Part shown: positions 1 to 16,586 of the stretch, piece after piece
Numbering within the stretch: position 1 is the stretch's first letter
How the letters are laid out: each line of letters begins with the position of its first letter
Notes under the pieces: model-generated
Seen by the model: the letters and a program-made list of their open reading frames with translations, nothing else
Told to the model about the DNA's origin: nothing
Database searches by the model: none
Translations under genes and position numbers: made by a program
NCBI GenBank assembly: GCA_025359165.1
Contig: JANYHG010000030.1
Location: 1 to 37,153 of the forward strand
Direction: 5' to 3'
DNA: 37,153 nucleotides
Origin: Hyphomicrobiaceae bacterium
Lineage (GTDB): Bacteria > Pseudomonadota > Alphaproteobacteria > Rhizobiales > Hyphomicrobiaceae

Positions 1-1046
1 CTTCCATGCAGCAGATACTGTGCATCGAGATTACGGCCTATCTCGCGTAGATCGAAACTCGGTGACACCTGGATCAGCGTCGAGCCGCGTGAAATGACCA
101 GCAACTCTTTCAATGTCGAGAGCGCCTGAATGACGCTGTCGACGATGCCTATCGTGTAGAGCGGCTCCAGGTTGGGGGACAACGCTAGGAAAGGGAGAAC
201 GACAATCGACGGACGGTTGGCTGCCGGTGCCGCCAGAGCGACCGCCGCCGCTTCCGCAGAGGGCTGAACCAAAGGTGCGACCGCCTCCGGCTGTTCCTGA
301 CGCAAACGTGCAATCAAGTCTTGCGTGAGCGGATGCGGCTCGATCTCGTAGGCATCGTCAAGTTGGCGCCAAAGCCGTGCATAGAGTGCGAGCGCGGCAC
401 CATTGTTGCCGGCAGCTACATGCGCTTTGATCAGAACGCGTACGGCCTGCTCGTTCTCAAGATCAAGCCGGAATATCGCCTTGGCCGCAGCTTCTTGCGT
501 GACCGAAACACCGGTCTGAGCTTCATCCGGCAACAGCTTCGTCAGCGCATCGATCAGGCGCTGGTGAAAGACCGGTCTGGTCTCGGTGATCCATTCCGAA
601 AACGCCGGATCGACGTTCTCGACGTCGTCCAGAAGTGTATCGGTAAGTCGTTCGCGCGCATGCAGGATTGGATCGACGGTCCCGCGCTCTGCATCCGAGA
701 CGACGTCGATTGCATCACACGCGACATCGTCGATTTCGAGGGTCACATTCAATTGGTCCGCGTGGAATTGAGAGCAGCCGAAAGCCTTGAGTTCACGCTG
801 TATCTCGCTCAACGATTGGCGCAACGAACCCTTCGCGAGCTGCTCGTCCTTTTCGCTCCAGAGAAGCCCGATCAACTTGCTTCTTGGCAACTGACGCGTC
901 GAAGACAGCATCATATAGCCGAGCAGCGCCTGCGCCTTCCGGCTGAGACCAACCTCGTGCCCATTCACGGACGCCGAAAATTTCCCGAATATTTTCAACT
1001 TCAGGCGGTCGGCTTCGCCGGCCACTGGCCCCGCGTCTCCCGGCAT
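1..1046 (-). CDS. BTAD/SARP-type transcriptional regulator with TolB-like domain (3' end outside window)
   Basis: Read on the minus strand from ATG at 1046, the frame stays open for 348 codons to the window edge, so the C-terminus is missing. Residues 15-105 look like the OmpR-type winged helix of SARP regulators (KLKIFGKFSASVNG, then RKAQALLGYMML and the SLRQSLSEIQREL helix). Residues about 110-250 are the helical BTAD region. From residue 279, RPSIVVLPFLALS and the following stretch resemble the TolB-like module that often precedes TPR repeats in large alphaproteobacterial regulators and adenylate-cyclase-type proteins. A GGGGGA ribosome-binding site lies 9 nt before the ATG. The frame is open further upstream without another ATG or GTG. 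The gene is divergent from the GNAT gene at 1390 and faces the paired inverted repeats at 1145-1238, which could be its own operator. The family call is good; the target genes are unknown. Confidence 0.8.
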   Translation of the reverse strand, partial: MPGDAGPVAGEADRLKLKIFGKFSASVNGHEVGLSRKAQALLGYMMLSSTRQLPRSKLIGLLWSEKDEQLAKGSLRQSLSEIQRELKAFGCSQFHADQLNVTLEIDDVACDAIDVVSDAERGTVDPILHARERLTDTLLDDVENVDPAFSEWITETRPVFHQRLIDALTKLLPDEAQTGVSVTQEAAAKAIFRLDLENEQAVRVLIKAHVAAGNNGAALALYARLWRQLDDAYEIEPHPLTQDLIARLRQEQPEAVAPLVQPSAEAAAVALAAPAANRPSIVVLPFLALSPNLEPLYTIGIVDSVIQALSTLKELLVISRGSTLIQVSPSFDLREIGRNLDAQYLLHG

Positions 1047-1389
1047 GGCGTTCCGTCCCCCATCGACATCGTCGACAGAAGTGTAGGAGTGCTGCCTATG
1101 GAAAGCAAAACTTTGGGGACTAAAAAATGCTGATTTTTTAAGTCGGTTGCAAGCGAAAAACTGGGTGCAACCCGCCAAACCGAAGTGCCCTTCGGAAATC
1201 TTGCTTGACGGGTTGCATGCAACATTCAAACTGCAACCTCAAGAAAAAATGAGAAACGGTCAATGCCGCATTGGAAGCTGACGGGCGTGAAACGATCGTC
1301 AAAGGCCGGTCCGACTTTAAAAATTCACGCTTGAATCATGCACCCGTGAAAAATGCCATCCAGAAATTAGATCCAGTCTGGAGGTACTC
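1047..1389. other. Divergent intergenic region
   Basis: This 343-bp gap separates the regulator from the GNAT gene. It holds the paired inverted repeats at 1145-1238 and, at 1380-1384, the GGAGG ribosome-binding site of the GNAT gene. Short frames here have no coding character. Confidence 0.6.
1145..1238. promoter_or_regulatory. Two copies of GGTTGCA-N14-TGCAACC (candidate operator)
   Basis: GGTTGCA at 1145-1151 pairs with TGCAACC at 1166-1172. The same arms recur at 1211-1217 and 1232-1238. Both copies have a 14-nt spacer and their starts are 66 bp apart. The second copy also contains the perfect palindrome GTTGCATGCAAC at 1212-1223. The block lies between the divergent regulator (start 1046) and the acetyltransferase (start 1390). 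Binding by the regulator is an inference. Confidence 0.6.
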
Positions 1390-1881
1390 ATGTTGTATGA
1401 TGGGCCGTGGGCCGAATCCGTCATCGCATTCGACCCCGGCATGCCGGTGGGGACGCAGCCAAAGATCGGCTGGTCGCGCGCCCTGAGCCCCGGATCGCAT
1501 GGAGACGAGTCGCCGCCCGGCCGGCTGGACGGCGTCTTTGGTGTGCAGGTCGACGGCCAGATTCAGGCGGTGGCGCTCTATCGTCTGAGCGGCACCGCAT
1601 CCATCAAGCGCATCATGCACCTGCTCATCGCCGTCGCAGAGGCGCATCGACGCCAAGGTATGGGGACAGCTCTACTGATGCGGTGCACGACCGTCGCGCG
1701 ACAAGGCGGATTACACTACCTCGTACTCGAAGATATCGATGCGGACGCACTTCAATTTGCGCGGATGGCCTCGGCGGAGCTCGTTTTCAGCAACGGCGAA
1801 TGCCAAGGTTGGATCGAGCTCGATCCGGTGTCATCCGCCTTCGCGGCAACGGAATTCGCCGACGTGAGGCACCATTCGTGA
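1390..1881 (+). CDS. GNAT-family N-acetyltransferase
   Basis: The 163-residue product has the GNAT fold signature. A strand followed by AVAEAHRRQGMGTALLMRC (about residues 77-95) matches motif A, where R/Q-x-x-G-x-G/A binds the acetyl-CoA pyrophosphate. GGLHYLVLEDIDADALQFA then matches the usual strand and helix after motif A. A GGAGG site 6 nt before the ATG fixes the start. The substrate cannot be told from sequence. The gene sits between the paired operator-like repeats and the convergent 3' end of the enolase-superfamily gene, with only 4 bp between the two stops. Its position suggests it may be controlled by the divergent BTAD regulator. Confidence 0.82.
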   Translation: MLYDGPWAESVIAFDPGMPVGTQPKIGWSRALSPGSHGDESPPGRLDGVFGVQVDGQIQAVALYRLSGTASIKRIMHLLIAVAEAHRRQGMGTALLMRCTTVARQGGLHYLVLEDIDADALQFARMASAELVFSNGECQGWIELDPVSSAFAATEFADVRHHS

Positions 1882-9216: not shown

Positions 9217-10939
9217 GTAACAGGGGCAAAACGCCGGGCGATCTGCATCGCCGGTTCGCCATTCACGCGGTCTGTACTTGGCAAGATCAGGGCGGCTGGA
9301 TGAGTGCGGGCAGCGGCGGCACGCTGGCAGCGCCCGGCACGCTGAGGCGGCAACCCAGATAATCCCAGAAGCGGACCCGCTGCTTGGCGCAGGTCTTCAT
9401 CAGTCCGAGGAAGGCGTCGCGGCAGTCGCGGCCCAGGTCCGAGCGAGTGCCGGCGGAGACCTTGCGGCGGGTGACGTGACTGCGAATGTCGCTCTCCGAG
9501 CCGTTGGTGTGCAGCGGAGTGTCTGGCCGCTCCAGCACCATCAGCAGATCGGCTTTCTTGCCGTGCAGCCGCTTTAGCAGCCGATCGAGCGTGACGAAGC
9601 AGGTCCTGGTCGTGAAGATCGCTTCGAAGCGGGTGGCCAGCTCGGCCTTGGCTTCGGGCATCGGCGCGCGAGCGTAGGCTTTCAGATCGGCGTAGAGCGT
9701 CCAGATGCGATCCCGGATCGCCTCCTTGGCTGTGCGCCGGTCCTGGGTGAACGCGTCCAACTTGTGCACGAGGCGCTCTGCATGCACCCAGCAGGCGGCG
9801 TGGTGGCCGATGTCGAACTGGCCGGCGCCGTCGGAAACGATGACGGTGTCGTCGATCAAGCCTTGTGCGCAGATCGAGCCCCACAGCGCGGCCTCGGTGG
9901 CGACACGGACGGGATCGGGGTGCACCTCCAGCGCGGTGATGCCGAGCGCCGTCAGATGCACCGTCCACGCTTCACGGCCGGCAAAGCTCGTGGTGGGGTG
10001 GCCGCAGAGCAAGGCGATCACCTTGGCCGACAGGTTGTGCTCGCCCATGTAGGAGATCGCCGCATCGTTGATCAGATGCGTCGTGTCGCCGGCGTTGAGC
10101 AGTTCGAGGAAGTTGAGCCGGCTTTTCGAGCCGGTGGTGATGAAGGCGGCGAACCGGTCGTTGCCGATGTGCGTGCACACGCCGTTCTTGGCCTTGTGGC
10201 GCGCTCCGGTGTCGTCGACCGTGATCCACGGGGCTGCGCCGAGCCCGGTGCGCAGCACGTCACGAGCTTCGCCCAGAAACGCGTCCTGGCTCTTGATCAG
10301 CAATCGAACGAGCTGACGTTTGGAGATGATGATGCCGAGGTCCTGCAGCAGGGCGAGCAGCCGCGGCATGGTGGTCTGGCCCTGATGGTACTGGGCGAGC
10401 ACGAAGCGCTTCAGCTCGGGTCCGAAGTGGGTGGTGATCCCGGTCGGCAGCGGCGCCACAATGGTCCGGCCGTCCGGTGTCTGCCAGCGCTCGCGCCGGT
10501 AGAGCACGGTCAGCGGTCGCACGATCATGTCCTGGACCAGGAACTCCTCGTAGCCCTTGAACCGCGCGCCGTCGGGCGGGTTCGCGACCTTGATCTCCCG
10601 CTCCTCGTCGATCGTGACCTTCGTGCGCTTGGAGCCGCGCCGGCCGATCTGGCGCTGGCCCTTGGCCGCCGGATCGGTTGCCTTCTCCATGCCGCTCGGC
10701 TTGATCTTGGGACGGCCCTTCAGCCCCTTGAGCCGGGCGATCTCCTCGCGCAGCTCCGCGTTCTCTGCCTTGAGCCGGGCATTATCCTCCAAGGCCTGCA
10801 CCACCAACGACTTCAGCTCTTCGAGGCCAAGCCCATCGACGGTGCGAGGTGAATCGGCCATGCTGTTACGGAGTCACAAAATACCCCCGCTTGGGAATCG
10901 CAGGCCGGCAACACCTGCCCGGACTTTTGCCCCTGTTAC
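9217..10939 (-). mobile_element. IS66-family insertion sequence, complete, single-ORF type
   Basis: The 1723-bp element is bounded by terminal inverted repeats beginning GTAACAGGGGCAAAA, with 21 of 23 positions matching (9217-9239 and 10917-10939). An exact 8-bp target duplication TCCTGTTT lies at 9209-9216 and 10940-10947. The GTAA tip and the 8-bp duplication are typical of IS66. Only the tnpC-type transposase is present, with no tnpA or tnpB, as in the ISBst12 subgroup. The intact frame and exact duplication suggest a fairly recent insertion. Confidence 0.95.
9287..10861 (-). CDS. IS66-family transposase (TnpC type)
   Basis: The 524-residue protein has the IS66 layout. An N-terminal leucine-rich coiled coil (about residues 12-47, ALEDNARLKAENAELREEI) is followed by a Lys/Arg-rich segment and a DDE catalytic domain. 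Candidate catalytic residues are the Asp in WITVDDTGARH, the Asp in VSDGAGQFDIGHH, and the Glu in TNGSESDIRSH. CWVHAERLVHKL matches the conserved CwaHarR-like region. The length is normal for the family and no frameshift is seen, so it is probably active. The gene lies inside precisely defined element ends. Confidence 0.95.
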   Translation of the reverse strand: MADSPRTVDGLGLEELKSLVVQALEDNARLKAENAELREEIARLKGLKGRPKIKPSGMEKATDPAAKGQRQIGRRGSKRTKVTIDEEREIKVANPPDGARFKGYEEFLVQDMIVRPLTVLYRRERWQTPDGRTIVAPLPTGITTHFGPELKRFVLAQYHQGQTTMPRLLALLQDLGIIISKRQLVRLLIKSQDAFLGEARDVLRTGLGAAPWITVDDTGARHKAKNGVCTHIGNDRFAAFITTGSKSRLNFLELLNAGDTTHLINDAAISYMGEHNLSAKVIALLCGHPTTSFAGREAWTVHLTALGITALEVHPDPVRVATEAALWGSICAQGLIDDTVIVSDGAGQFDIGHHAACWVHAERLVHKLDAFTQDRRTAKEAIRDRIWTLYADLKAYARAPMPEAKAELATRFEAIFTTRTCFVTLDRLLKRLHGKKADLLMVLERPDTPLHTNGSESDIRSHVTRRKVSAGTRSDLGRDCRDAFLGLMKTCAKQRVRFWDYLGCRLSVPGAASVPPLPALIQPP

Positions 10940-10947
10940 TCCTGTTT
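10940..10947. repeat. IS66 target-site duplication, right copy
   Basis: TCCTGTTT follows the right inverted repeat and matches 9209-9216 exactly. Confidence 0.93.
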
Positions 10948-10986
10948 GAGGTAAGTTCTTGATAGCAATTCGAAATGATGCGGCGA

Positions 10987-11394
10987 CTACGGGGTGGGAG
11001 TTCCAGCAGGCGGTGCGAGGGCACGTCGCACCGTGGTAACGAAGTGCTCGGCCGCGGTGATAACCTGCCCCGCATCCGCAGCCGTTACAACGGCGGCAGC
11101 ACCCGTTTCATAATCAGCGACTTCCTTGAAGTGGTAGGAGGCGCTCAAGGTGGCCGCAAATCCTGGCGCGAACGTCGGCTCGGCCATGGCAAGCCTGTGG
11201 AATTCTCTGTCGACGCCTTTATGCGTCTTAGCAACTTTGTCGGTACGCTCGAATATCAACGCCTGCGCAGCATGAAATTGAGCATAATAGGCAAGGCGGG
11301 CCGCCTGCCGGGGAATGTTGACTGCCAAGATTTGCTTGGCATCCCGGATGGCCTCGTCGGCGCTGTCGAGGTAGGCGGAGGTCTGCGGCTTCAT
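10987..11394 (-). CDS. HEPN-domain protein, partner of the MNT nucleotidyltransferase
   Basis: The 135-residue all-helical protein has the HEPN core: a first helix SADEAIRDAKQIL (11-23), then RLAYYAQFHAAQALIFER (33-50), KTHKGVDREF (57-66) and the late ADYETGAAAV segment. The R-x4-6-H RNase motif of toxic HEPN proteins is not evident. It starts inside the MNT stop codon (ATGA, 11391-11394), so the two are translationally coupled. Such pairs act as type VII-like toxin-antitoxin modules, in which the MNT protein modifies the HEPN protein. Toxicity cannot be inferred from this sequence. The gene lies 39 bp from the IS66 target duplication. Confidence 0.82.
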   Translation of the reverse strand: MKPQTSAYLDSADEAIRDAKQILAVNIPRQAARLAYYAQFHAAQALIFERTDKVAKTHKGVDREFHRLAMAEPTFAPGFAATLSASYHFKEVADYETGAAAVVTAADAGQVITAAEHFVTTVRRALAPPAGTPTP

Positions 11395-11708
11395 AGTTCG
11401 AGCCCATCCTTGCGTATCTCGTACATCAGAGGCGAAGACGGATCGCGCCAGCTTCCGGCGGGAAAAGGCATGGCATGAATGTCGGCATCCGTATGATCGC
11501 GCATGGCGAGCTCGATATCGGTGATGCGGCGCACTTCCTGCCAGCGGCTCGCGAGGTCTTTAAGAAACACGGCGACGTCATAGTCGCTGTCTGAGCGCGC
11601 GTCCCCCCGCGCGCGCGACCCATATAGTACGACGCGCTCGATGCGGTCGCCGTAAACCTCGGTGAGGGCCGCTCGGAAGCGAGTCAAGATGGGATCGGTA
11701 AAAGCCAT
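11391..11708 (-). CDS. MNT-type minimal nucleotidyltransferase (putative antitoxin)
   Basis: The 105-residue protein carries the polymerase-beta-type nucleotidyltransferase signature GSRARGDARSDSDYDVAV (30-47). The Gly-Ser pair is intact, and D42 and D44 are the metal-binding acidic residues. Known MNT antitoxins transfer AMP to the HEPN partner. The gene is first in a two-gene unit and overlaps the HEPN gene by 4 bp. The start ATG at 11708 has no strong ribosome-binding site. The neighbouring resolvase ends 72 bp upstream in the same orientation. Confidence 0.88.
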   Translation of the reverse strand: MAFTDPILTRFRAALTEVYGDRIERVVLYGSRARGDARSDSDYDVAVFLKDLASRWQEVRRITDIELAMRDHTDADIHAMPFPAGSWRDPSSPLMYEIRKDGLEL

Positions 11709-11780
11709 GCACCAAGTCTAGCAGATTGATATGAAAGTAACAAAAGGCTTGTGAGCACCGCTTGTGATGGTCGCCAGCGG

Positions 11781-12326
11781 CTATCTGAGGCGGGCAATGG
11801 TGGCGTGGTGCACGGCCATGTCGGCTGCGACGGTGCGGCAGCTTTCGCCACGGGCGAGGCGGGTGCGGGCGGTTTGCTGCTGATGTTGGGTCAATTTTGG
11901 CCGTCGGCCCATGCGTACACCACGTCGGCGCGCGGCTGAACGGCCTTCGGCAGCGCGCTTGTGGATGCGTTCGCGCTCTTCCTCAGCGAGCGCAGACAGA
12001 AAGGCGAGGAAGCCCTGTCCCATGCGCGTACTCAAATCCAGGTGTGGCTTGTCCAGAACCTTGATGGTCGCGCCACGGTCACCAACGCGCTGCATGATGG
12101 CAATGCCGTCCATCATCGAGCGGGTGGCCCGGTCCCATTCAGCCAGCACGAGCACATCGCCATTGCCAAGGGCCTGGATGGCCTTTTCAAGTTCCGGGCG
12201 GTTACGTACATCGCGGCCGGAGGCCTTCTCTGCAAAGATGGCTACGCAACCGGCGGCTAGAAGGGCGCCGAGCTGGCGGTCAAGATTCTGATGGATAGTC
12301 GAGACGCGGGCGTAGCCGATGAGCAT
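11781..12326 (-). CDS. Serine resolvase/invertase family site-specific recombinase
   Basis: The 181-residue protein has the resolvase catalytic domain with nucleophile S9 in IGYARVSTIHQNLDRQ. VLAEWDRATRSMMDG and GQGFLAFLSALAEEERERI follow, the latter forming the long E helix. A C-terminal helix-turn-helix ends with VAADMAVHHATIARL. The length matches Tn3-type resolvases and Hin-like invertases. No Tn3-type transposase is present in the window, so the gene is either a remnant or a stand-alone multimer or cassette resolver. A hairpin sits directly before the start codon (12329-12352) and candidate recombination-site repeats lie at 12365-12420. Confidence 0.9.
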   Translation of the reverse strand: MLIGYARVSTIHQNLDRQLGALLAAGCVAIFAEKASGRDVRNRPELEKAIQALGNGDVLVLAEWDRATRSMMDGIAIMQRVGDRGATIKVLDKPHLDLSTRMGQGFLAFLSALAEEERERIHKRAAEGRSAARRRGVRMGRRPKLTQHQQQTARTRLARGESCRTVAADMAVHHATIARLR

Positions 12327-12328
12327 GT

Positions 12329-12352
12329 GCCGAGCCTACCCGAAGGCTCGGC
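12329..12352. promoter_or_regulatory. Hairpin abutting the resolvase start codon
   Basis: GCCGAGCC (12329-12336) and GGCTCGGC (12345-12352) form a perfect 8-bp stem with an 8-nt loop, 2 nt from the resolvase ATG. On the minus strand the only purine-rich candidate ribosome-binding site (GGGTAGG) falls in the loop and stem. Folding could therefore limit translation. It could also act as a terminator for plus-strand transcription, where it is followed by CTTT. Confidence 0.5.
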
Positions 12353-12364
12353 CTTTCGCACCTG

Positions 12365-12420
12365 ATTTGCGCGACAGCCTATGCCGTTGATTTTGCTTGG
12401 TTCATCAGGGTGTCGCAAAT
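12365..12420. repeat. Inverted repeat, possible resolvase (res-like) site
   Basis: ATTTGCGCGACA (12365-12376) and TGTCGCAAAT (12411-12420) are inverted relative to each other across a 34-bp spacer. They match except for an inserted CG. TGTC/GACA ends resemble half-sites used by Tn3-type resolvases, and the pair lies just upstream of a serine resolvase. The function is inferred. Confidence 0.4.
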
Positions 12421-12499
12421 ATCCTGACTTTTGGGCCAGAAAACCACTCTATATCCAGCCCTTAACGATTTATTGAAATTACAAATCATATTATAAATA

Positions 12500-13399
12500 A
12501 TGGATTACGCCAAAAAAGCATTTCTGGATGGGCTGCGCGAGCTGCTATTTAATGAACTTCGGAGCGATGGTATCAAAATCAGTGGAAACCCGTTTCCAGC
12601 AAGAGAATCGCCGAACAATGGTATGTATTATAGTGCAAATAACTTAGTGATGGGGTTCACACTTCGTGAAGCTATGAAAGCGAACAACGCTTCTGCTGCG
12701 CCGTGCAAAGCCAACTCAATAAACGACCAGTTTCTCGATATAGATCGTATGCGTGTAGGCATACACGAAATTTCTCATGCTATTATCTATCAAAAATCAT
12801 TAGTGAAACCGCTGCAAGATGCCATGAAGCGTGTCTTTGATCCGCTACAAAAAGAACGCATACTATCTGTCGATCAAGAGAAAGCAGATACAATTATGCG
12901 AGAAAACATAAATGAAGCCATGGCTGATGCGATAGCCGCTCAATATATGCTTAGGCGATTTGGCACTGACCCGCGTATTTCAGCGTATGTTAAGGCGATG
13001 ATCTCAATTAGGGAAGCTCCCATACAAGACTTAACTCATCAGACCCAGGCTCTTGTGTCTAAAGTCTATGACCAATGGGACAGCAAAAAATCTATAGACC
13101 CGCGATATAAATTGACTGAGGCCGCTCGAGACGTTGTCAAAATGGTAGCCAAAGATGCTGATGCCCAAAAGCTAGGAAGGGACATCGCAAAGAGCGTTGT
13201 TTTTGCTCCGGGTTTTAGGCGCTGGATGAACGATGAAGACGAGCGTGCCAACAAGCCATTAGTGCACGGGCAAGAAATAATTCTCGATGCATACATCGGA
13301 AAATTCGGGAACACACCGCCGCCCGACGAGCGCCTTATGCGAAGAATGGAAGACAAGGAACACGCACTAAAATCTTTATGCAGCCCTACAAAGAAATGA
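12500..13399 (+). CDS. Putative zinc metallopeptidase (HEXXH...NEAxxD), family not recognised
   Basis: The 299-residue protein has no obvious named family, but it shows a metallopeptidase active site. H89-E-I-S-H93 (GIHEISHAIIYQ) is a zinc-binding HEXXH helix. N138-E139-A-M-A-D143 (INEAMADAIAAQY) lies 46 residues after H93 and resembles the third-ligand motif NEAxxD of thermolysin-like gluzincins. No signal peptide or membrane segment is seen, so it is probably cytoplasmic unless secreted by another route. The gene is AT-rich with rare-codon use unlike the chromosome, pointing to horizontal transfer. Upstream sequence is AT-rich with a TATTATAAAT-like stretch and no clear ribosome-binding site, so the start is less certain. 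The role is unknown; island location allows a defence or effector function. Confidence 0.7.
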   Translation: MDYAKKAFLDGLRELLFNELRSDGIKISGNPFPARESPNNGMYYSANNLVMGFTLREAMKANNASAAPCKANSINDQFLDIDRMRVGIHEISHAIIYQKSLVKPLQDAMKRVFDPLQKERILSVDQEKADTIMRENINEAMADAIAAQYMLRRFGTDPRISAYVKAMISIREAPIQDLTHQTQALVSKVYDQWDSKKSIDPRYKLTEAARDVVKMVAKDADAQKLGRDIAKSVVFAPGFRRWMNDEDERANKPLVHGQEIILDAYIGKFGNTPPPDERLMRRMEDKEHALKSLCSPTKK

Positions 13400-13535
13400 C
13401 CGTTGGCGCGGCATCGACAATGAAAATGTCCAGCCTCCATCGTCAGCAGGAAACACGTCGGGCGTGAAAAATTACCTATTACCGACAAATAGTTCACATC
13501 TGTCCGGTTTCGTGGGTGCGCTCAATCAAACAGGC

Positions 13536-14087
13536 TTACCTAGCGCTGACTACCCTAAATTGGGTTTTCCAATCTAGTCGTTGGCCATTTAAGAACCCCC
13601 AACCTCCAACAATAAATGTGTCTTCACCAATAACGCCTCCGCGAGGCCGGTATGTAATGCTACCGCTACTAGCAGTCACAGACCCACGATTTCCTTGCGC
13701 TATCACCCTCAGATTTGAAAGAGGAATTGTGCGATCTTTGTCAAGATAAGCGGGCGCAGAACATTCTGTTGTCGCACTTGAAACCACCATCGTTGCGGTC
13801 GCTCCGCCGGATTTCGTTGCGCCGGAGAAGGCCCTAGTATGGCAAACGGCTGCTACTGGTGGAAGTGGAACAACGGTGGAGGGTGCGGTTTTCGCTCCAA
13901 GTGACGTTGGAATATTGTTATATACGTTACACTGGATGGTCACTTTTCCGTCGCCATCTGTTTTTACAGTCGGGCTACAATAACCTTTTGTGTCTTGTGT
14001 CGTTTGCGCGAATGCGTTTGGGATTATCGCGTAAACTGTCAAAACAGCTACCGCCAGTCTTTTCGACTTAAAATAAATGCGCGACAT
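13536..14087 (-). CDS. Secreted protein with signal peptide and Ig-like C-terminus, function unknown
   Basis: The 183-residue product has a classical signal peptide: basic start, then a hydrophobic stretch ending NAFAQ with likely cleavage after A27. The mature part has four Cys residues, which could form disulfides (GYCSP, IQCNV, AVCHT, TECSA). A C-terminal SGSITYRPRGGVIGEDTFIV segment resembles the YxPxxGfxGxDxFxV pattern of bacterial Ig-like or cadherin-like repeats. The start ATG has GAGGTGG 4 nt upstream. It lies 42 bp after the GDK-repeat membrane protein in the same direction, so the two are probably cotranscribed. No family name can be given. Confidence 0.65.
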   Translation of the reverse strand: MSRIYFKSKRLAVAVLTVYAIIPNAFAQTTQDTKGYCSPTVKTDGDGKVTIQCNVYNNIPTSLGAKTAPSTVVPLPPVAAVCHTRAFSGATKSGGATATMVVSSATTECSAPAYLDKDRTIPLSNLRVIAQGNRGSVTASSGSITYRPRGGVIGEDTFIVGGWGFLNGQRLDWKTQFRVVSAR

Positions 14088-14129
14088 CCGCCACCTCGTT
14101 CAACGCTAATCACGCTGACTTCACACGAA

Positions 14130-14450
14130 TTATTTCTTCTCCTTGTAGAATGTATCTCGCCCGCTTGAGATTGCAGGACTATTATCTCCAGTAGTGCGTT
14201 GATCTATGGAAGTTTTATTCCCCTGAATCTTATCGCCGACGAATTTATCGCCTTGCACTTTATCTCCCGCCACCTTGTCGCCGGCAACTTTGTCGCCAAC
14301 AACGACATCGGCCTTTTGACCATTTGTTTGTGCAACATGCACAGGAGAAGGCGTTCGATTGTCAGAGTAAACTTGATAGCCGAATGCTGCGACGGCCACT
14401 ACGAGTCCGCCAATGGTCGCAATGTTAGCCCACGTCGGCAACTTAAACAT
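14130..14450 (-). CDS. Membrane-anchored protein with six GDK pentapeptide repeats
   Basis: The 106-residue product has one hydrophobic segment (about residues 9-27) followed by a hydrophilic domain. Residues 51-80 are six consecutive pentapeptides of the form x-G-D/N-K-x (VGDKV, AGDKV, AGDKV, QGDKF, VGDKI, QGNKT), then a TTGDNSPAISSG stretch. Similar GDK tracts are found near the ends of various bacterial membrane and conflict-related proteins and may form a small beta-helix. GGAGGG lies 8 nt before the ATG. The gene is promoter-proximal to the secreted protein at 13536-14087. No function is assigned. Confidence 0.7.
   Translation of the reverse strand: MFKLPTWANIATIGGLVVAVAAFGYQVYSDNRTPSPVHVAQTNGQKADVVVGDKVAGDKVAGDKVQGDKFVGDKIQGNKTSIDQRTTGDNSPAISSGRDTFYKEKK
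14211..14300 (-). repeat. Six 15-bp coding repeats (GDK pentads)
   Basis: The DNA repeats at a 15-bp period within the membrane protein gene and encodes six pentapeptides with an invariant Gly and Lys. The period in frame with the codons shows it is a protein repeat, not a CRISPR array. Confidence 0.8.
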
Positions 14451-14575
14451 GCCCTTACCCTCCGAAGGTCCTCTCTACGCGGAGCCATCCATACACGGTG
14501 GCGTGCGGTGATGCCAAATGCTTCGCGACGCGTGTAATCGCTCATGCAATCTAACGGCCGAATTATGACGGGGTG

Positions 14576-14713
14576 ATGAAGAACCGCAACGATGCAACAG
14601 GGGTGAGCGTGCCGTTCGACGACCTTCCCGATACGATCCCCGTCAACGCCAAGGAACTGGCGGCAATCGAAATGTTTCTTGGCGCGGTCATCGACGCACT
14701 GATTGCGGAATAG
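14576..14713 (+). CDS. Small ORF (45 aa) upstream of the serine recombinase
   Basis: ATG at 14576 to TAG at 14713 encodes a 45-residue acidic peptide beginning MKNRNDATGVSVPFDDLP and ending in an amphipathic helix (AKELAAIEMFLGAVIDALIAE, in two parts). GGGGTG directly precedes the ATG. It lies 91 bp before the large recombinase and runs in the same direction. It may be a small accessory or regulatory protein of the integrase. The call rests on position, codon composition and a plausible helix, so it is moderate. Confidence 0.5.
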   Translation: MKNRNDATGVSVPFDDLPDTIPVNAKELAAIEMFLGAVIDALIAE

Positions 14714-14804
14714 CACCCGCACGCATTCCGGCGATCGGCGTGCCAAGGGGGCGCTGGTGCGTTATAAGATGAGGAAGCGGCACGTGTCTTGAGAGGACAA
14801 GTCG

Positions 14805-16586
14805 ATGCAGAAGCCAGGGTTGCGGTCGCGGGTGATGCCGCGCGCCGATCTGGGTGTTCGTAACGCGGCGCTTTATCTGCGGGTGTCCACCGGGCGGCAG
14901 GCCGAGCAGGATCTGTCGATCCCCGACCAGAAGGCGCAGGCGCGGGCTTGGGCTGCCACGCGCGGCTGGCAGGTCGTCGCAGAATTTGTGGAACCGGGGG
15001 CATCGGCGACTGACGACAAGCGGCCGGTGTTCCAAGAGATGATCGAGCGCGCCTGCAACGGCGAGAACGCGTTCGATGTCATCGTCGTCCATTCCTATTC
15101 GCGCTTCTTCCGCGACGCGTTCGGCCTCGAATTCTATCTGCGTAAGCTGAAGAAGAGCGGCGTCCGGCTGGTCTCGATCACGCAGGAGTTGGGTGATGAT
15201 CCGGCACAAGTGATGCTGCGGCAGGTCATCGCGCTGTTCGACGAATATCAATCCAAAGAGACCGCCAAGCATGTGCTGCGGTCGATGAAGGAGAACGCGA
15301 GGCAAGGGTTTTGGAACGGGTCGCAGCCGCCCTATGGCTATAGGCCTATAGAAGTCGAGCAGCGCGGCGTGCGGGTCAAAAAGAAGCTGGTCATCGACGA
15401 TGTCGAGGCCGAGCAGGTGCGGCTGATCTTTCGCTTGTTCGCGCAAGGCGATGGTGCCAGCGGGCCGAAAGGCGTCAAGGCTGTGGTGCGCTGGCTCAAC
15501 GAGGATGGCCATCGCACGCGGCACGGAGCCCGCTGGGGCATCGGCCCGGTGCATCGGCTGCTGACCGACACCGTTTATTGCGGCCAGCATCGGTTCAATC
15601 GGAAGGTGAGCAAGACGGGCGTTGCCAAGGAGGCGGGCGAAGTCATCACGACCGAAGTCCCAGCCATCATCGAGCCCTCGGCCTTCGAGCATGTGCAGTC
15701 GTTGCTCAAGGCGCGGAACCCAAAAGTGGTTGCGCCGCGCGTCGTCACGGGGCCCATCCTGCTCACGGGATTAGCCGTGTGCGCGACCTGCGGCGGCGGC
15801 ATGACGCTGCGCACCGGCACCTCGAAGCAGGGCAACGTCTACAAGTATTACACCTGCTCGCGCCAGCATCGGCAGGGGCAGACTGGGTGCAAGGGCCGCT
15901 CGATCCGCATGGATAAGCTGGACAGCCTCGTCACCGAGCATCTGGCCAGCCGTCTGCTGACGCCGGTGCGCCTGTCCGAAATGCTGATGGCGTTGACAGC
16001 TGGGCGCGCCGAAAAAGCTGCCGCCGTCGATGATCGCGTCGGCCGCCTGGAGCAGGAAGCCGAGCAGGCGAAAACGCGATTGAACCGGCTCTACAAGATC
16101 ATCGAGGACGGCCTTGCCGAGATGGACGACGTTTTGAAGGCCCGCATCACCGGCCTGAAGCTGGAGCATGATCGCGCGCAGGCTGCCTTGGAGCGGGCGC
16201 GCACGTCGGTCCGGCCCGCCGTACATATCAACCCGGCGGTACTGGAGCGCTTCGGTGCGACGATGCGCCAGAACTTGACGACCGGTGCGGTGCCATTCCG
16301 CAAGGCCGTGATCACGTCGTTCGTGGACCGTATCGAGGTCGACGACCACGAAATCCGCATCATGGGCGACAAAGGCACGCTGGAGCGTGCCGTTCTGGGT
16401 GGTTCGGGCCCTGACGGCGGCGGTCAGGACGGGGTTCGCAGTTTGGTTCGCAATTGGCGGAGAGGGAGGGATTCGAACCCTCGATACCCTTGCAGGTATG
16501 CCGCATTTCGAGTGCGGTGCATTCAACCACTCTGCCACCTCTCCGGACCAAGGCCGCTCACGCGTGATCGCGAGCATCCGGACTGA
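14805..16586 (+). CDS. Large serine recombinase (integrase) of the island
   Basis: The 593-residue protein has the large serine recombinase layout. The catalytic domain has nucleophile S28 (ALYLRVSTGRQAEQ) and VIVVHSYSRFFRD. The recombinase domain starts around residue 175 (PPYGYRPIE) and runs to about 290. A zinc ribbon has C326, C329, C351 and C362. A coiled coil spans about 408-470. GAGG lies about 9 nt before the ATG. Residues 551-580 are encoded by the antisense of the tRNA-Ser gene at 16455-16544, and the stop lies beyond it. The attachment site is therefore at or in the 3' end of the tRNA, and the native C-terminus may differ from the one read here. Confidence 0.93.
   Translation: MQKPGLRSRVMPRADLGVRNAALYLRVSTGRQAEQDLSIPDQKAQARAWAATRGWQVVAEFVEPGASATDDKRPVFQEMIERACNGENAFDVIVVHSYSRFFRDAFGLEFYLRKLKKSGVRLVSITQELGDDPAQVMLRQVIALFDEYQSKETAKHVLRSMKENARQGFWNGSQPPYGYRPIEVEQRGVRVKKKLVIDDVEAEQVRLIFRLFAQGDGASGPKGVKAVVRWLNEDGHRTRHGARWGIGPVHRLLTDTVYCGQHRFNRKVSKTGVAKEAGEVITTEVPAIIEPSAFEHVQSLLKARNPKVVAPRVVTGPILLTGLAVCATCGGGMTLRTGTSKQGNVYKYYTCSRQHRQGQTGCKGRSIRMDKLDSLVTEHLASRLLTPVRLSEMLMALTAGRAEKAAAVDDRVGRLEQEAEQAKTRLNRLYKIIEDGLAEMDDVLKARITGLKLEHDRAQAALERARTSVRPAVHINPAVLERFGATMRQNLTTGAVPFRKAVITSFVDRIEVDDHEIRIMGDKGTLERAVLGGSGPDGGGQDGVRSLVRNWRRGRDSNPRYPCRYAAFRVRCIQPLCHLSGPRPLTRDREHPD
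16455..16544 (-). tRNA. tRNA-Ser (anticodon CGA)
   Basis: The 90-nt gene folds as a class II tRNA. The acceptor stem is GGAGAGG/CCTCTCC, followed by discriminator G and an encoded CCA. The anticodon stem is CCGCA/TGCGG with loop CTCGAAA (anticodon CGA), and there is a long variable arm and a GGTTCGAATCC T-arm. It overlaps the 3' coding end of the recombinase on the opposite strand, which is the usual picture at a tRNA-linked integration site. The 3' end of the tRNA faces the island. Confidence 0.96.

Follow-up and report, generated by a model that had tools for sequence, protein, structure and literature searches.

Generic dimer operators include those with a pair of sites between divergent promoters, and inverted symmetry suits ordinary dimeric repressors. 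For regulators of the SARP type, the parts of the published accounts available to us describe direct repeats: the sites of AfsR (the afs box) are bound by a side-by-side SARP dimer (PMC10936776), those of PimR are direct heptamer repeats (PMC5930380), and the repeats recur with a period of 11 or 22 bp, or of 10 in one PimR site (PMC10936776; PMC5930380). According to the same excerpts, a SARP box does not always lie at the −35 region of the promoter that it controls, the main operator of PimR being without such overlap (PMC5930380), and EmbR carries a C-terminal FHA domain (PMC10936776). No named factor for GGTTGCA with a 14-nt spacer appeared among the papers listed in literature searches. 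The titles and abstract openings searched contained no inverted-repeat operator of a BTAD regulator, which is a statement about these titles and openings and not a claim of absence from print.

The locus analyzed here lies near the start of a window of 37,153 nucleotides (the whole stretch of DNA under study) from a member of the Hyphomicrobiaceae. As far as the excerpts describe the afs box and the PimR heptamers, it shares with them half-sites of ∼7 bases, their occurrence in multiple copies, and a position near the gene, or near a target, of a regulator that combines a BTAD domain with an OmpR-type DNA-binding domain. Unlike those sites, which the same excerpts give as direct repeats with a period of 10–11 or 22 bp, it has inverted arms at a distance of 21 bp. 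When the intergenic region (1047–1389) was searched for direct heptamer repeats, their number was not above chance; allowing up to one mismatch, one pair was present at an offset of 11 (shuffle mean 0.70) and none at offsets of 10, 21, or 22. The locus resembles generic two-site dimer operators in that a regulator gene and a divergent neighbor flank two near-identical inverted repeats.

The repeat pair and its surroundings

The initial annotation had described two GGTTGCA-N14-TGCAACC inverted repeats, and both were found in the sequence with perfect 7-bp arms and 14-nt spacers (candidate operator site 1, 1145–1172; candidate operator site 2, 1211–1238). The perfect palindrome reported inside the second repeat is also there, as the 12-bp GTTGCATGCAAC at 1212–1223. 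None of the repeats and palindromes is assigned to a strand. Both copies lie within the 343 bp that separate a BTAD (SARP-like) regulator gene (3–1046, minus strand; 348 aa visible from the ATG at 1046, then cut off by the contig end) from a GNAT acetyltransferase gene (1390–1881, plus strand; 163 aa; Pfam Acetyltransf_1, 32.2 bits). Their placement between the two genes, as originally claimed, depends on the regulator starting at ATG 1046. This start was our choice; in 27 of 29 homologue alignments, similarity does not begin before residue 5 (numbered from 1046), which fits it, the query itself having begun at 1046. The reading frame stays open as far as a TTG at 1229, so that a start well upstream of 1046 is conceivable. 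At the repeat pair, the GC content dips to 0.46–0.47, compared with at least 0.55 on both flanks.

Within each site, the distance from arm to arm is 21 bp, exactly two helical turns of B-DNA. From the start of site 1 to that of site 2, the distance is 66 bp, as annotated; however, the accompanying "about six helical turns" was inexact, since 66 bp corresponds to 6.3 turns (at 10.5 bp per turn), and the two sites are thus not exactly in phase. Because the spacers are equal, 1145–1238 can also be read as one nested palindrome centered at 1191.5, where 28 of 46 positions are complementary, the highest value of all centers in 1000–1440. Its inner arms can be lengthened to 13 positions, 12 of them complementary, and form an inverted repeat that links both sites (1166–1217), with TGCAACCCGcCAA at 1166–1178 pairing with TTGaCGGGTTGCA at 1205–1217. 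A small central inverted repeat, CCGAAG-TGCC-CTTCGG, occupies 1180–1195.

The repeat pair is too regular for chance. Two inverted repeats with the same 7-bp arms and the same spacer were not obtained in any of 5,000 dinucleotide shuffles of 1047–1389, and no other such pair exists in the rest of the window. Among 85 fetched genome loci (321 kb), six matches to this type of pair were counted, all of them re-fetched copies of the locus itself; this count covers 85 of 209 loci and leaves out 124, including those from the paired-motif scans. Throughout the 4.16-Mb assembly of the organism, the two repeats are the sole matches to the motif with fewer than two mismatches, and at two mismatches 17 further matches compare with 18 for a reversed control pattern. 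One further GGTTGCA/TGCAACC pair with a spacer between 4 and 30 nt is present in the assembly (contig C142, 18-nt spacer). Other measures were unremarkable: the four window matches at up to three mismatches were reached by 18 of 100 shuffles, and the score of the best gapped inverted repeat of 1100–1349, which is the inner one, was matched by 103 of 1,000 shuffles. The significance of the element thus stems from the duplication of the repeat and not from the score of a single inverted repeat.

Besides the regulator and the GNAT gene, the genes recognized by Pfam in the first 9 kb encode a branched-chain-type ABC transporter, the binding protein belonging to it, and two enolase-superfamily enzymes; a second regulator is not among them. 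As the regulator gene is cut at the contig end, the genes on its far side, perhaps including another regulator, lie outside the sequence. Farther downstream, an IS66 transposase and two serine recombinases mark a mobile-rich stretch (9287–16586). On another contig of the same genome (G000; C129, locus L054, 3977–4107), the final 131 bp of the GNAT gene recur at 83% identity, as a partial duplicate preceded by sequence that looks transposase-like by eye.

The divergent regulator and its relatives

The regulator contains a BTAD domain (Pfam PF03704, 38.6 bits against a cut-off of 22.1), which was matched by all 17 members of an alignment consisting of the window protein and 16 homologues. Trans_reg_C is weak in the window protein alone (18 bits, cut-off 26.2); at E ≤ 0.01, it was detected in 10 of the 17 members, the window protein included. 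A profile built from this alignment matched AfsR and then EmbR among solved structures. The predicted model of the regulator (mean pLDDT 82.9) gave six Foldseek matches at E ≤ 0.001, all of them EmbR or AfsR, with modest TM-scores of 0.42–0.46 by query length, and EmbR was its best solved-structure match. Having a BTAD domain and an N-terminal OmpR-type winged-helix domain, the protein falls among those of the SARP type, and its likeness to AfsR and EmbR by profile and predicted fold suggests that it is SARP-like and could in principle bind DNA. Conserved residues in the helix at 68–88, which we infer to be the recognition helix, are common to the 16 homologues. The window protein thus resembles EmbR of M. 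tuberculosis, the best match of its model and the second of its profile. It differs at the C terminus: the available part of the source gives EmbR an FHA domain there (PMC10936776), whereas the window protein runs into another region, truncated by the contig end, in which Pfam found no match.

A close orthologue of the regulator was not found among the relatives and the family and class genomes searched; the best homologue (in G821) is 42% identical (42.5% over 292 positions). Homologues were present in 29 of 60 relatives at E ≤ 0.001, many over the C-terminal part only, in 12 of 103 family genomes at E ≤ 1e-25, and in 10 of 385 class genomes at E ≤ 1e-30, each count including the organism's own genome where listed. 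Since up to five candidates were scored per genome in the class-wide search, homologues may have been missed there. The initial annotation had proposed to scan for the motif upstream of orthologues, with absence counting against an operator of the regulator. This could be followed for distant homologues (27–42% identity), there being no true orthologue among the genomes searched: none of 24 upstream regions (median 350 bp each) contained the motif within three mismatches, and the best matches, at four to six mismatches, were as in shuffles. The conservation expected of an autoregulatory operator of the BTAD family was not seen in these 24 homologues, which speaks against a family-conserved operator but is weak evidence regarding this locus itself. 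Nor did the 24 regions have a common repeat spacing with a clear peak; direct repeats were in excess over shuffles at several offsets (z of 3.0 at 30, 2.5 at 21, and 2.3 at 20, with 1.5 at 11 and −0.7 at 22), and inverted repeats gave z values of 1.7 at 21 and 1.9 at 32.

In two of the homologue loci (family genomes G820 and G802), a YcaO cyclodehydratase gene lies directly upstream of the BTAD-regulator homologue and on the same strand (L198, 4920–6266, minus; L196, 3501–4865, plus). This adjacency suggests a link of the regulator family to peptide or thioamide modification.

Among 385 class genomes, the paired form of the motif was found in the organism's own genome only, and the inner inverted repeat (1166–1217) in one of 103 family genomes, again its own. 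Of 397 genomes of the order, seven besides the organism's own contained one exact site each, compared with five genomes for the reversed control, so that single sites appear chance-like; the seven 3-kb loci around them contained neither a BTAD nor a GNAT homologue, and reading frames of 100 aa or more overlap five of these sites. Upstream of GNAT relatives (10 loci, 1,500 bp each), the motif occurred at three to six mismatches only, and none of 10 frames picked upstream of seven regulator homologues matched a GNAT family. A pattern scan of genome contigs gave 202 matches, among which the regulator had no relative. A genome-wide scan for the paired pattern, loose and incomplete, gave at least 117 stretches; among the 117 listed, no relative of the regulator or of the GNAT protein was found at E ≤ 1, also when the search was repeated with a positive control. 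Many of the best 25 of 135 paired-pattern matches are, by eye, tandem repeats or repeats with an 81-bp period.

Such 81-bp-period repeats, in L073, L116, L119, and similar loci, contain GGTTGCA-N14-TGCAACT-like pairs that mimic the motif and look coding by eye. A viral scan for the paired pattern gave six stretches, five of which lie in repetitive reading frames, as judged by eye. The sixth, on a viral contig (IMGVR_UViG_3300031455_000044, L206), is a dense array of GGTTGCA/TGCAACC heptamers at 173–340, just after a short reading frame, which includes GGTTGCA-N4-TGCAACC twice. The heptamer is the one seen here, the spacing is different, and the array looks like an operator or an origin array.

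A candidate operator and competing explanations

The repeats probably constitute a paired, locus-specific DNA operator in the divergent BTAD/GNAT region, bound by a dimeric protein. Three properties argue for this: the pair is non-random, it lies between the genes, and it is specific to the locus. The nature of the divergent neighbor, a DNA-binding type of regulator (BTAD, OmpR-type winged-helix region, likeness to AfsR and EmbR), was counted in its favor as well, as were the dip in GC content and the exact 21-bp distance of the arms. Counted against it were the lack of the motif in all 24 homologue upstream regions and the restriction of the paired form to one of 385 class genomes. The original proposal of a cooperative operator in a divergent regulator promoter thus survives as to the operator, which is the best reading of the element; its cooperativity had been drawn from the inexact six turns. 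If the proposed operator is real, each 28-bp site would take up a symmetric dimer, with contacts to the GGTTGCA arms along a single face of the DNA, and one or both of the divergent promoters would be switched when the two sites are occupied. Two weak promoter candidates, found by consensus only, would give this scheme its direction, their positions being guesses. Site 2 lies over the possible GNAT promoter (TTGACG-N16-CAAACT, 1205–1232, plus strand), which would suit repression; both sites lie upstream of the possible regulator promoter (TTGCTT-N17-TACACT, 1080–1108, minus strand), which would suit activation or autoregulation. A stricter standard scan of the region detected no sigma-70-like promoter.

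Which protein would bind is a separate matter. The occurrence at a single locus points to a factor dedicated to that locus, and the BTAD regulator is the likeliest single candidate, if a tentative one. Its role is plausible, with some contrary evidence, namely, the direct-repeat architecture of the SARP sites in the accounts cited above, which does not exceed chance in this region, and the 24 of 24 homologues without the motif. Spelled out in full, with symmetric dimers of the SARP-type protein occupying its own divergent promoter through inverted GGTTGCA arms at a 21-bp distance, and with two dimers bridging via the nested palindrome, the proposal becomes doubtful.

It is quite possible, although short of being expected, that the operator serves some different regulator and not the BTAD protein; its gene would lie past the contig end or elsewhere, and the BTAD gene, the GNAT gene, or both would be targets. 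Being a sub-case of the operator explanation, this possibility shares part of the probability given to the operator as a whole. The inverted symmetry fits ordinary dimeric repressors better than an AfsR-type dimer, which, in the part of the source available, sits on direct repeats (PMC10936776); moreover, the 16 BTAD homologues share conserved residues of helix 68–88, yet the motif is missing from the 24 upstream regions. On the other hand, a global factor should have more sites than the N14 sites at this one locus (fewer than two mismatches), and the first 9 kb offer no second regulator recognized by Pfam.

Alternatively, but improbably in our view, the nested palindrome might act at the RNA level: within the 5′ leader of either the regulator mRNA (minus strand) or the GNAT mRNA, it would fold into a long hairpin that serves as an attenuator or stability element. 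The region 1140–1243 is predicted to fold stably (minus strand, z −4.76; plus strand, z −3.60; none of 200 shuffles was as good on either), and G-U pairs on the regulator-sense strand lengthen the inner stem of the predicted structure. However, when the four arms were held fixed and the rest was shuffled, the additional stability was not significant, although both strands lean that way (P = 0.057, minus; P = 0.073, plus). The fold is thus mostly a product of the arms, and folding does not help to decide between an RNA element and a DNA operator. Each 38-nt repeat alone folds weakly (z −0.8 to −2.5), a terminator-like site is absent from 1000–1450, and Rfam gave two hits only on 900–1600, both far below their gathering scores.

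Just as improbable is a non-functional remnant, be it the end of a mobile element, a recombination site, or a chance palindrome in a mobile-rich contig: the IS66 transposase and the two serine recombinases at 9.3–16.6 kb, the partial copy of the GNAT tail on C129, and the ordinary score of the best gapped inverted repeat would fit it, but a second match to the intergenic DNA was found neither in the assembly (E ≤ 1) nor in the plasmid and phage collections, and chance is unlikely for a duplicated repeat that no shuffle reproduced. Two specific candidates of this kind were rejected. For a MITE or transposon end, the possible outer repeat (1133–1146/1311–1324) is chance-like (383 of 1,000 shuffles reach its score), and the assembly lacks the second match just mentioned. 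The 28-bp length of the sites resembles that of a small-resolvase site; in the window, GGTTGCA is found only at 1145, 1211, 20262, and 34986 and TGCAACC only at 1166, 1232, 8903, and 26294, and no copy is near the resolvase gene (11781–12326).

Possible consequences for SARP-type regulators

Taken as an operator alone, the repeat pair would be an ordinary regulatory site of a single locus, a new instance of a familiar kind. More would follow if the BTAD protein binds it. A symmetric dimer on inverted arms would differ from the side-by-side mode on direct repeats that the available parts of the AfsR and PimR accounts describe (PMC10936776; PMC5930380). Proteobacterial SARP-type proteins could then use inverted rather than direct repeats, which, if true, would alter how the targets of SARP-type proteins are predicted.
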